Shown piece by piece: positions 4,003-6,931 of a stretch of 64,000 bases of DNA. The translations under genes and the position numbers were made by a program. Each line of letters begins with the position of its first letter. Position 1 is the stretch's first letter. Where the stretch lies: positions 62,001 through 126,000 of the forward strand of contig JAKITV010000002.1 of NCBI GenBank assembly GCA_021647885.1, in the 5' to 3' direction. This DNA comes from Flavobacteriaceae bacterium (GTDB lineage Bacteria > Bacteroidota > Bacteroidia > Flavobacteriales > Flavobacteriaceae). The notes below the pieces were generated by a model, which saw only the letters and a program-made list of their open reading frames with translations, ran no database searches and had not been told where the DNA came from.

Positions 4003-4066
4003 GTATTCAGTTTACAGTATCCTAAATTGTTAAAAACTGCTTACTGCAAACTGAGAACTGTTTACT
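4003..4066. repeat. CAGT-rich intergenic repeat, copy 1
   Basis: This spacer is built of variants of GTATTCAGT, TTTACAGTAT and CTGCAAACTGAGAACTG. Bases 4044-4060 are the reverse complement of 42522-42537 with a single inserted base. A third, shortened copy lies at 46873-46890. It overlaps the 3' end of the exonuclease III gene by a few bases. It does not code. Confidence 0.5.
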
Positions 4067-4829
4067 GATTTCCTATTTCTACTAAAATCGGACAATGGTC
4101 ACTATGCACTGCTTCAGATAGTATAACGGCTCTTTTTATATTTTCTTGTAAAGGGTTTGCCACCATTGCATAATCTAATCGCCAACCCTTATTATTGGCT
4201 CTTGCATTTGCACGATAACTCCACCAACTGTAATGGTGTGGCGCATCATTTAAATGTCTAAACGAATCTATAAATCCACTGTTTATAAAATTTCCAATCC
4301 ACTCGCGTTCTATTGGCAAAAACCCTGAAGTGTTTTTTAACCCTTTTGGATTATGAATATCTATTTCTTCGTGGCAAATATTATAATCGCCACAAATAAT
4401 TAAGTTTGGATAATCTTGCTTTAACTCATTTATATACTCCTGAAACATTGCCATATATTCCAGTTTATGCTCTAAACGTGCCATATTTGTTCCTGAAGGT
4501 AAATACAAACTCATAACCGAAACACCATCAAAATCAACTCTAAGATTTCTGCCTTCAAAATCCATAGATTCAATTCCTGTTCCATATTCAATATGCTTAG
4601 GTTCTGTTTTACTTAAAATTGCAACGCCACTATAGCCTTTTTTTTGAGCACTAAACCAATAGTTATATTGGTAGCCAGCTTCTGCAAAAATATCCAAATC
4701 CAATTGTTCTTTTAAAGCCTTTATTTCCTGTAAACAAATCACGTCTGGATTAGCACTTTTAAGCCAATTTATAAAACCTTTATTTACAGCAGCTCTAATA
4801 CCATTAACATTATAAGAGATTATTTTCAA
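4062..4829 (-). CDS. xth: Exodeoxyribonuclease III (AP endonuclease)
   Basis: This is a 255-residue exonuclease III-type enzyme of base-excision repair. It cuts DNA at abasic sites and trims damaged 3' ends. The metal and catalytic residues are in place: Asn in SYNVNGIR, Glu35 in CLQEIKA, Asp147 and Asn149 in GDYNICHEE, and the terminal SDHCP motif with the catalytic His. Length matches the family. It is followed by a CAGT-type repeat and preceded by the terminator of the fulvocin C-related operon, so it is probably transcribed separately. Confidence 0.95.
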   Translation of the reverse strand: MKIISYNVNGIRAAVNKGFINWLKSANPDVICLQEIKALKEQLDLDIFAEAGYQYNYWFSAQKKGYSGVAILSKTEPKHIEYGTGIESMDFEGRNLRVDFDGVSVMSLYLPSGTNMARLEHKLEYMAMFQEYINELKQDYPNLIICGDYNICHEEIDIHNPKGLKNTSGFLPIEREWIGNFINSGFIDSFRHLNDAPHHYSWWSYRANARANNKGWRLDYAMVANPLQENIKRAVILSEAVHSDHCPILVEIGNQ

Positions 4830-4865
4830 CCTTAATTCTTTAGAATTTCAGCTAAAATAAAAAAC

Positions 4866-4880
4866 CCTGTTTAAAACAGG
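4866..4880 (-). terminator. Terminator of the fulvocin C-related operon
   Basis: On the minus strand CCTGTTT pairs with AAACAGG around a single-base loop (or a shorter stem with a larger loop) and is followed by GTTTTTTATTTT. It lies between the DUF1573 stop codon and the exonuclease III start, so it ends the three-gene operon upstream. Confidence 0.75.
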
Positions 4881-4888
4881 ACTCTTTA

Positions 4889-5263
4889 TTAGTTTACTTT
4901 TCCTTTTAAATAAAACATGTTAAAAGGAGGATTTGTGTTTGCTTCTACTACTATAGCCTTTTTAATTACTCCTTTTTCATTTGGAATGAATTGTATAGTT
5001 ATATCTACTATTTCATTTTTAAAAATTTCCTCCTTATAATATCGAAAAGTTGTACAACCACAAGCAACACCGATCGAATCTATTTTTAATGGATTATTTG
5101 TTAAGTTTTTTATTTTAAAAACCTTAATCAAAGTATCAGTCATGTTTATCTCTCCGAATTCAAATATTTCTGGAGTAATTTCAATTTCAGTGATTAGTTT
5201 TTCTGAAACTTCCTTTTTACATGATACAAAAAAAAGAAAACATATAACTATTTTTTTAATCAT
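4889..5263 (-). CDS. DUF1573 lipoprotein in a fulvocin C-related operon
   Basis: The 124-residue product has a very short signal peptide ending FVSC, so it is probably a lipoprotein, followed by one DUF1573 immunoglobulin-like (ASH/HYDIN-like) domain. The domain is recognised by FEFGEI, FKIKNLTNNPLKI and the ACGCTT loop, whose two cysteines are typical of this family. It overlaps the upstream thioredoxin gene by 8 bases, a sign of translational coupling. DUF1573 proteins have no agreed function. Here the setting suggests an envelope role beside the cysteine-rich peptide. Domain call is firm, function open. Confidence 0.8.
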   Translation of the reverse strand: MIKKIVICFLFFVSCKKEVSEKLITEIEITPEIFEFGEINMTDTLIKVFKIKNLTNNPLKIDSIGVACGCTTFRYYKEEIFKNEIVDITIQFIPNEKGVIKKAIVVEANTNPPFNMFYLKGKVN

Positions 5264-6104
5264 TTATATATTTTTCAATTAATGAGTTTATATTATTATA
5301 AAAATGATACCATTTATCATTCATTCTTCCTTTATAAACGATTCTTTGGTCTTTATTTAAAATTAATAGTTTAGGCACTGTTCTATTATCTAAAGTTTTC
5401 CATGAGCTTATTTCTATAGCAAATAGTGAATTAAACTTATAGTCTTTTACGTAAGATTTTACATCTATAATAGAATCTCTTTTTAAAGGGAGATATAGGG
5501 CGTAAAACTCTATGCTTTTATCATCTTTATATTTAAGTTTTAACGCTTCAAAATCTGGAAATTTTTTGATACAAATTCCACAAGCTGTTGACCATAAATC
5601 TAAAACAATAACTTTATCTTTTTCAAATTGGAAAGTATTATCATAGATATCATTTAGTTTTAATTTAGGAAAAGGTTTATCAATCGGATTTTCTTCATCA
5701 AAAGAAAAATTTAACCAATTTGGCATTCCAATATATCCCATAATTATAATTATGCCTACATATATTACCTTTGAATATGGTTTTGCTTTTACTTTATAAA
5801 ACAGGTAGCCAAAAAAAGCATTAACAACAGGAAATATTAAAATAGGCAAAACGTGTAAGCGTTTGAATTCAAGTAGTTTAGGAATTAAAACAAATCCGTA
5901 AATCAATAAAAAAGGAGAGATTAGAATTGCTAGACTTATTACTTTATTTTTCGGTTTGTCGTTTCTTAATATACATAAAGAGGCAAAAAAATATACTAAA
6001 CCAATACATGTAAACTGAAACACCCAATTAACAGCACCACTAAAAATTGCAATAAGCGTGGCTATTATTGTAAAAACAATTGCTTTTTTATATGTTTTAA
6101 ACAT
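5256..6104 (-). CDS. Membrane-anchored TlpA-like thiol-disulfide oxidoreductase
   Basis: The 282-residue protein has four or five hydrophobic segments (about residues 8-25, 28-47, 55-74, 86-103 and 112-127), then a periplasmic thioredoxin-fold domain from about residue 140. The redox centre is Cys175-Gly-Ile-Cys178 in WSTACGICIKKFP, and a later VPKLLIL supplies the cis-proline region. Such proteins reduce or isomerise disulfides outside the cytoplasmic membrane. It lies 20 bases after a gene for a peptide with eight clustered cysteines and overlaps the DUF1573 gene, so disulfide handling of that peptide is a reasonable inference. The membrane part is not one I can assign to a named family. 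Confidence 0.82.
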   Translation of the reverse strand: MFKTYKKAIVFTIIATLIAIFSGAVNWVFQFTCIGLVYFFASLCILRNDKPKNKVISLAILISPFLLIYGFVLIPKLLEFKRLHVLPILIFPVVNAFFGYLFYKVKAKPYSKVIYVGIIIIMGYIGMPNWLNFSFDEENPIDKPFPKLKLNDIYDNTFQFEKDKVIVLDLWSTACGICIKKFPDFEALKLKYKDDKSIEFYALYLPLKRDSIIDVKSYVKDYKFNSLFAIEISSWKTLDNRTVPKLLILNKDQRIVYKGRMNDKWYHFYNNINSLIEKYIND

Positions 6105-6124
6105 TTACTTTTTTAAAATATTAC

Positions 6125-6703
6125 CTAATCACATAATCCATTACATGGTGAAGCCCACAGTATTCCACAACCTGTATAACTTGTCTCACATTCTAAACCA
6201 CTGTCACAGGTACTCCATAAACAATAATCTTCAGAAGTATTACATGCGCAATTATTATCTCCTTCAAATACTGGTCCTCCATTGGTTACATTTAATTCAC
6301 TTAATGTGGTAAAATAATTAACAATTTGCTCTTTTACAAAATGCTCTTCAATTTTTGAAGCCCAATTTTTTACTTTTTCATCTAATTCAAAATATTCTTT
6401 ACTACCTGTATTATATAAACTTGCCTTAATATAAGTTTGCAATTCAACAACAAGTTTTTTTTGAATTGCTGTCAAATTTTGACTTTTCAAAACATTGTTT
6501 ATCTTTTTCTTCCAGAGAAAAGCTTTACTTTCATTATTCAATAATCTAAAGGCAACTCTTTGCTCATCTCCTGATAAATCTATGACACTTTGAATTTTAA
6601 CTATGTCAATTGATGAGGTTTCTAGTGAATCAAATTCAGATGTTTCACATGATTGAAAAACAATTGAAATCATAAATACAAATAACACATAATAATTTTT
6701 CAT
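6125..6703 (-). CDS. Fulvocin C-related bacteriocin-like lipoprotein precursor
   Basis: The 192-residue product has a lipoprotein signal (FQSC, Cys19) and a charged helical middle (about 35-135). Its C-terminus is cysteine-rich, with Cys at 152, 154, 161, 166, 172, 179, 187 and 191. The spacing CACNTSEDYC...C...C...TGCG...C..C resembles fulvocin C, the small disulfide-rich bacteriocin of Myxococcus fulvus, as I recall that sequence. Proteins of this build are annotated as bacteriocin fulvocin C-related in Bacteroidetes. It is the first gene of an operon with a thioredoxin and a DUF1573 lipoprotein. No ABC exporter or immunity gene is evident. Whether the tail is cut off, and whether it is toxic, cannot be told. 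Confidence 0.7.
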   Translation of the reverse strand: MKNYYVLFVFMISIVFQSCETSEFDSLETSSIDIVKIQSVIDLSGDEQRVAFRLLNNESKAFLWKKKINNVLKSQNLTAIQKKLVVELQTYIKASLYNTGSKEYFELDEKVKNWASKIEEHFVKEQIVNYFTTLSELNVTNGGPVFEGDNNCACNTSEDYCLWSTCDSGLECETSYTGCGILWASPCNGLCD

Positions 6704-6888
6704 AACTAAATAAGTTTTAAAGTTAATTTCTATAAAGCTCCTTTAAAAAAAATGTAATTACAAATTATTAAATTCATTTTTTCGATTATTGGAAGAATTT
6801 ACGGTTTTTGCGTAATTATTTTTAAGAAATGTATTACAAAACTATTGCGTTAACTATAAGTATAAATTTTGGTTTTTTATTTAGAGAA

Positions 6889-6896
6889 TACTTTTG
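6889..6896 (+). promoter_or_regulatory. -7 box of the giant outer-membrane protein gene
   Basis: TACTTTTG matches TAnnTTTG exactly. A TTTG at 6868-6871 could serve as -33 element, although the 17-base spacer is shorter than the usual 19-21. Transcription from here would begin near 6901, downstream of the longest possible start codon and upstream of the ATG at 6932. Confidence 0.5.
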
Positions 6897-6931
6897 CAAT
6901 AATTTCATTTCTTAACTGTTATTTTTACTTT

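Follow-up and report, generated by a model that had tools for sequence, protein, structure and literature searches.

An accessory cassette of Flavobacteriaceae pairing a fulvocin C-related precursor with a membrane thioredoxin

Why would a bacterium of the family Flavobacteriaceae encode a lipoprotein-like protein with eight cysteines crowded into its tail next to a membrane-bound thioredoxin? The question is raised by three minus-strand genes at positions 4889-6703 of a 64,000-nucleotide stretch of contig JAKITV010000002.1 (hereafter the window, meaning the whole stretch analysed), whose source assembly comprises 2.59 Mb in 67 contigs at a completeness of 87%. The open reading frame (ORF) listing assigns to them a 192-amino-acid (aa) precursor, a 282-aa thioredoxin protein and a 124-aa DUF1573 protein. 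We hold it to be somewhat more probable than not that the genes form an accessory cassette for a disulfide-stabilised peptide, which would be made at the end of a precursor destined for export, receive its fold from an oxidoreductase of its own and most likely be antibacterial. The genes themselves, the conservation of the cysteines, the pairing or fusion with a redox domain and the presence or absence of the cassette as a block are directly established; lipidation, topology, disulfides, cleavage and toxicity of the precursor system are what we infer.

A lipoprotein-like precursor with a fulvocin C-like core

The precursor and its parts are as follows.

6125..6703, minus strand: fulvocin C-related lipoprotein-like precursor, 192 aa (ORF; NCBIfam NF033852, 107.4 bits, cut-off 35)
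6647..6703, minus strand: signal peptide with lipobox-like VFQSC and putative lipid-anchor Cys19 (from the sequence; lipidation predicted)
6311..6604, minus strand: helical leader, residues about 34-131, six predicted helices (AlphaFold model, block pLDDT 53-84; a related stretch occurs in L027-L029 proteins with other tails)
6128..6250, minus strand: eight-cysteine core, residues 152-192, CxC-x6-C-x4-C-x5-C-x6-CG-x6-C-x3-C (per-protein cysteine spacing)

The precursor matches the curated model NF033852, 'bacteriocin fulvocin C-related protein', with an E-value of 1.2e-30 over profile positions 1-149 of 150, well above the cut-off, so a family name already exists for it. Apart from Cys19, its nine cysteines all lie in residues 152-191, which agrees with the initial annotation's count of eight within the last 41 residues. 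The eight cysteines recur in the order CxC, C, C, C, CG, C, C at 19 of 19 loci of the same phylum (Bacteroidota) that carry the core, and all eight are present in 5 of 5 actinobacterial copies measured, giving 24 of 24 overall; the count is based on the spacing in each protein, as the MAFFT alignment lined up seven cysteine columns in all rows and shifted the Cys161 column in some. The spacing from the sixth to the seventh cysteine is seven residues in all 24 proteins, and that from the third to the fourth varies widely, from 3 to 22 residues. The actinobacterial five leave out L036 (99% identical to L035), L082, L083 and other plasmid records; L082 and L083 have eight cysteines each by eye.

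The 19 core-bearing genomes comprise eleven from a draw within the family, one from a phylum draw and seven from a class draw, one of the last (G1137) scoring below the NF033852 cut-off. Among the 19 are L053, below the cut-off at 32.8 bits, and L023 and L026, with broken leaders. Excluded are L034 (G557), in which the core is present in a broken frame, no adjoining thioredoxin is seen and masked bases lie downstream, and four weak matches without the eight-cysteine core (three in G057, one in G266).

As far as sequence comparison goes, the strongest functional anchor for the precursor is fulvocin C, compared through a provisional sequence and the curated family name. Fulvocin C is a disulfide peptide, reportedly described by Tsai and Hirsch in 1981 from Myxococcus fulvus. 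The provisional sequence, which we take to be that of the mature peptide, aligns to residues 151-189 of the window precursor with 18 of 41 identities (E 7e-10, a single comparison) and to NF033852 positions 108-148 of 150 at 29.5 bits, under the cut-off of 35 for a peptide that spans only the last third of the model. The counterpart of the mature bacteriocin is thus the C-terminal core, and leader makes up the larger part of the NF033852 model. Together with membership of the family, this alignment upholds the relation to fulvocin C first proposed from the cysteine pattern. Both peptides have eight cysteines, with spacings that by eye agree within one residue except for the last, and share a GCG-x-x-W motif. 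In contrast to fulvocin C, the peptide in the window is a putative bacteriocin that forms the end of a lipoprotein-like precursor. The NF033852 profile covers leader and core as in the window, but the model names the precursor only; the redox module paired or fused with it, its presence as a block and the division into leader and core are added here. An excerpt of PMC8708641 places fulvocins among the few known myxobacterial ribosomal peptides, and one of PMC12333140 uses the fulvocin-related annotation as a keyword.

Foldseek found no match in the PDB for the full-precursor model at E<=0.001, and a sequence search against solved structures gave no significant relative (best E 0.47). A Pfam ESCRT-II match (E 0.0018, 19 bits against a cut-off of 27) and a match to Vps25 (E 0.47) were set aside as chance helical matches.

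Pairing and fusion with a redox domain

Directly downstream of the precursor gene, in the sense of transcription, lies the partner gene.

5256..6104, minus strand: membrane-bound thioredoxin/ResA-like protein, 282 aa (CGIC behind five hydrophobic segments; profile match to ResA structures)
5571..5582, minus strand: CGIC active-site motif, residues 175-178 (sequence)

The five hydrophobic segments fall in residues 4-129 and the thioredoxin domain is C-terminal; a basic N-terminus on the inside followed by five crossings would place this domain outside the inner membrane. Matches of the 282-aa protein alone to the Redoxin and ResA models are below their cut-offs, and a profile built from nine partner relatives matches ResA structures at 7.8e-12. 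The partner shares with ResA/TlpA-type oxidoreductases a thioredoxin domain with CxxC, and differs from them in having several hydrophobic segments ahead of it. Across the loci the partner proteins are 272-339 aa as called and share the arrangement of N-terminal hydrophobic segments and CxxC thioredoxin domain, with proline as the third residue of the motif in 3 of 15.

A thioredoxin gene lies directly downstream on the same strand at 14 of the 19 loci, in 12 of 17 genera (14 of 20 loci if L034 is included). These are the window, L017, L019 (two copies), L020, L021, L023, L025 and L026, together with L047, L048, L049, L050, L052 and L053. The loci were collected by the fulvocin profile alone, and the thioredoxin count is therefore not biased by the partner; they are partly dependent, L048-L050 belonging to one genus and the window, L017 and L025 to one site.

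In the window genome the partner is the sole full-length match to its own profile, the other five matches covering at most 201 of 286 positions. Among 395 family genomes, 11 match at E<=1e-25 among the matches listed; ten places reach E<=1e-80, nine of which adjoin fulvocin genes and one of which (G353) stands alone, with no fulvocin core in the 300 bases upstream. G261 and G345 hold weaker thioredoxin matches, with no fulvocin core in the stretches read. Because the profile was built from the nine fulvocin-adjacent sequences themselves, the independent matches come down to G353, G261 and G345, and the value of the scan, which scored six candidates per genome and could miss weaker relatives, lies only in how few other matches exist.

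In most of the relatives seen in Actinomycetota, the redox domain and the precursor are joined. Streptomyces plasmids, Glycomyces and Actinopolyspora encode a CxxC domain, with the motif SCGTC, SCALC, SCGKC or SCRVC, ahead of leader and core in a single reading frame, and the N-terminus of the fusion carries a segment that looks by eye Tat-like or membrane-spanning. The public annotation of S. goshikiensis covers the complete fusion; two other public annotations start the gene later. Across 13 Streptomyces plasmid records, 10 match over at least 97% of the fused query. We call the head thioredoxin-like only on its CxxC motif and weak matches (Pfam Thioredoxin, E 0.068; best PDB matches thioredoxins, E 0.1). 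Assignment to a DCC domain was rejected, since hhalign against the DCC protein of L053 gave a probability of 4.3. Proteins that are encoded side by side in one phylum and fused in another classically share a task, and precursor and redox domain would do so here, although the redox domains of the two phyla may be non-orthologous. Among the papers listed in literature searches, mostly outside subscription journals, none was seen to describe the precursor-thioredoxin pairing.

The actinobacterial head also occurs with cysteine-rich tails of unrelated kinds. In Rubrobacter the gene is L080:3989-5152, with 42.7% identity along the head (E 3e-21); in Thermomicrobium it is L081:4013-5032 (43%, E 3e-7). 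A wider reading, to which we give less than even credence, would place fulvocin C as a single branch within a broad class of cysteine-rich peptides made for export, whose precursor and redox enzyme are neighbours in Bacteroidota or one polypeptide in Actinomycetota; because the head bears these unrelated tails, cargo would be swapped on a constant folding-and-export chassis, and one lineage at least could turn its precursor on and off through a tetranucleotide repeat. An S8 serine peptidase gene lies near the head-tail gene in both L080 and L081, and in L081 the head-tail gene is followed by a run of small, hydrophobic proteins.

A side observation concerns L053, where the fulvocin-like gene, of 105 aa and almost without leader, has as neighbours a gene for a DCC1-like oxidoreductase and that of the membrane thioredoxin found at most other loci (L053:6693-8659). 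A neighbouring 131-aa protein has its N-terminus, not its core, in common with the 105-aa protein.

The third gene of the cassette is a less constant companion.

4889..5263, minus strand: DUF1573 lipoprotein-like protein, 124 aa (Pfam PF07610, 67.9 bits, cut-off 26.1)
5054..5062, minus strand: C-G-C motif of DUF1573, Cys68 and Cys70 (comparison of five DUF1573 genes)

It overlaps the thioredoxin gene by 8 nt (5256-5263). A DUF1573 gene adjoins at 5 of the 19 loci (the window, L017, L018, L023 and L025), and we reject it as an obligatory part. The three genes had initially been taken as one unit; the pairing of precursor and thioredoxin is supported by 14 of the 19 loci, but conservation of all three genes together is not supported. 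In the five genes both cysteines are kept, and the middle glycine in four (L018 has C-S-C). Two reviews (PMC9312934 and PMC13188914) count DUF1573 as a selenoprotein family and give its motif as U-G-C, by analogy with which the C-G-C motif is probably redox-active.

Genomic site, distribution and divergence of leader and core

Around the cassette, the window shows the following.

4866..4880, minus strand: terminator-like hairpin with U-rich tail, closing the cassette (fold z-score and consensus scan)
4830..6931, no strand: whole interval between exonuclease III and the next large gene (comparison with loci L058 and L059 of same-genus genomes)
4062-4829: exonuclease III gene
6932: start of the next large gene past the cassette

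The hairpin sits between the cassette and exonuclease III in a region (4845-4895) with a fold z-score of -3.06; the consensus terminator scan puts it on the plus strand, although its U-rich tail is that of the minus strand. ORFs, profile matches and the fold scan thereby recover every element initially described: the lipoprotein-like precursor, the membrane thioredoxin with CGIC, the overlapping DUF1573 lipoprotein and the terminator.

Exonuclease III could be located in two of four same-genus genomes (G002 and G003; the other two gave none), and in both the site is empty, the large gene following directly after gaps of 123 and 179 bp. At L017 the cassette occupies the same site as in the window, and likewise at L025, where it is flanked by the large gene and, as the contig ends, by the beginning of the exonuclease gene. 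The absence from the two same-genus genomes may reflect gain or loss, in either direction. The cassette is present or absent as a block, an accessory character.

It is also rare. At E<=0.001, in overlapping draws in which the window's own genome was counted where drawn, matches occurred in 2 of 99 relatives, 13 of 397 genomes of the same family, 4 of 395 of the phylum and 9 of 395 of the class, and in 1 of 92 and 3 of 12 genomes of two other families; 0 of 14 control genomes matched in every draw. Relatives of the window protein were found neither among phage records nor among viral contigs, the latter searched with six short patterns, and plasmid matches came from six records, all Streptomyces.

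On a plasmid of Streptomyces sp. NBC_00012 (L037), two tandem precursors have leaders that agree in 97% of positions and cores that agree in 52%; at the DNA level, identity is 60/60 per window over alignment columns 240-839 and then drops to 46, 31 and 31 of 60. With the same query, two related plasmids each give a single place. A general rule of diversifying cores is unsupported, the pair of the window precursor and L017 showing the opposite, with 46% identity in the leader and 80% in the core.

The cysteine pattern, which the initial annotation had expected homologues to keep, was lost at none of the 19 loci with a core; it is different in four weaker leader relatives below the cut-off (L027:2842-3276, L027:9426-10019, L028:7902-8531 and L029:7854-8462, from G057 and G266, three copies being in one genome). 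The genes downstream of these four encode proteins of 272-290 aa different from the thioredoxin partner, and none of the three scanned reached a Pfam cut-off. Found in G057 and G266 on different tails and ahead of a different gene, the leader seems to be a carrier. Beside the leader-type paralogues, L027:19-1556 holds a recurring repeat (LLPIHNQTRIET in translation) that resembles a CRISPR array.

At L021:260-331, an ATG is followed directly by about 17 repeats, (AACA)17, and then by the precursor signal peptide in another frame. Such a tetranucleotide repeat, seen in this one gene among 24 scanned for a frame-shifting repeat at the start, is the usual anatomy of translational phase variation and could switch the precursor on and off. 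At L018:7814-7880, GTT is repeated nine times shortly before the start codon of the fulvocin-related gene; being a triplet, the unit does not shift the frame.

Proposed function and its competitors

In the mechanism that we favour, the precursor would leave the cytoplasm through Sec and, once lipidated at Cys19, be anchored in one of the membranes of the envelope, the helical leader carrying the eight-cysteine core at its C-terminal end. The downstream membrane protein, with its thioredoxin domain outside the inner membrane, would form or shuffle the core's four disulfides, and the DUF1573 C-G-C protein would act as a second redox partner in the window's lineage. The core would be freed by an envelope protease encoded elsewhere or would act anchored at the cell surface, and by analogy with fulvocin C its most likely use is antibacterial competition. 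Comparable by description are the SitA toxins of myxobacteria, reportedly lipoproteins with variable C-termini. An excerpt of the SitA study (eLife 2017, PMC5562445) describes them as a myxobacterial toxin family delivered through outer-membrane exchange. If the mechanism is right, NF033852 proteins gain a testable biosynthesis in which a dedicated oxidoreductase folds the eight-cysteine peptide while it is still part of the precursor, the partner gene becomes a handle to find and produce such peptides, and Bacteroidota gain a peptide weapon without a dedicated exporter gene.

Several observations weigh against this mechanism. No thioredoxin lies directly downstream at 5 of the 19 loci (L018, L022, L024, L033 and L051), and in 3 of the 13 Streptomyces plasmid records, those of S. 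clavuligerus, the match begins only at residue 142 and the head is lacking. Inspection by eye of the listed window ORFs recognised no exporter or immunity gene, the same outcome as in the initial annotation, which had reported no ABC exporter or obvious immunity gene, and no protease is recognisable in the window. The AlphaFold model of the full precursor has a mean pLDDT of 50.2, the helical leader being the only part modelled, and the core alone (mean pLDDT 41.7) yields no usable model that would show or exclude the expected four disulfides. The last two cysteine spacings are 6 and 1 in the provisional fulvocin C sequence and 7 and 3 in the window precursor. The pair of the window precursor and L017, with its well-kept core, does not look like an arms race. 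A surface lipoprotein export signal of Bacteroidota, defined in Capnocytophaga as C-X-K-(D/E)2-X in an excerpt of PMC5080379, gives little help either: the window precursor reads C-E-T-S-E-F in place of the exact C-X-K-(D/E)2, a consensus that is Capnocytophaga's and differs in other species, and the exact motif occurs in 1 of 17 precursors with an eye-readable lipobox (L050). Surface export of the window precursor via this signal is thus unsupported.

The best of the competing explanations, which we nevertheless consider unlikely, is a lipoprotein of the cell surface or periplasm whose disulfide-rich domain is structural and has an enzyme of its own to fold it, the lipoprotein serving attachment, redox sensing or envelope repair and killing nothing. 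The lipoprotein-like anchor, the core conserved between the window and L017 and the lack of an exporter or immunity gene among the window ORFs would all suit such a protein, and DUF1573 and ResA-like proteins suit general envelope redox work. It sits less well with the homology to a known bacteriocin, with the rarity and block-like presence or absence of the cassette, with the L037 tandem copies, which put different cores on one leader, and with precursors that are broken at three loci, by an in-frame stop in L023, loss of the leader in L026 and a broken frame in L034, each possibly an assembly error.

A second explanation, improbable in our judgement, makes the thioredoxin mainly a means of self-protection that reduces and thereby disarms an incoming core peptide, with general Dsb-type enzymes folding the peptide. 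L023, L026 and G353 keep an intact thioredoxin although their precursor is broken or absent, an observation that also counts against a dedicated folding enzyme and, as it fits immunity, leaves that role some room. The five precursors without a directly downstream thioredoxin all have open frames, and most of the actinobacterial relatives seen have the redox domain and the precursor in one protein, an odd arrangement for immunity; both speak against a mainly protective role.

ResA/TlpA relatives ready cysteines for haem or copper sites, and the C-x-C and C-G spacing of the core would suit a metal, but binding of zinc, copper or an iron-sulfur cluster by eight cysteines that the redox proteins keep reduced for loading is very improbable, given that fulvocin C is a disulfide peptide and that some cysteine spacings, above all the third to fourth, vary to a degree unusual for a metal site.

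Two minor observations were made beside fulvocin-related genes. At L033:4763-7605, two ResA-like proteins (one by Pfam, one by eye) and an ABC-2 type transporter are encoded divergently from the fulvocin-related gene, possibly an alternative export or protection set. At L024:7500-7712, near the fulvocin-related gene, a 70-aa ORF ends in CPCPDGGWSWLCCP and looks by eye like a modified-peptide precursor.

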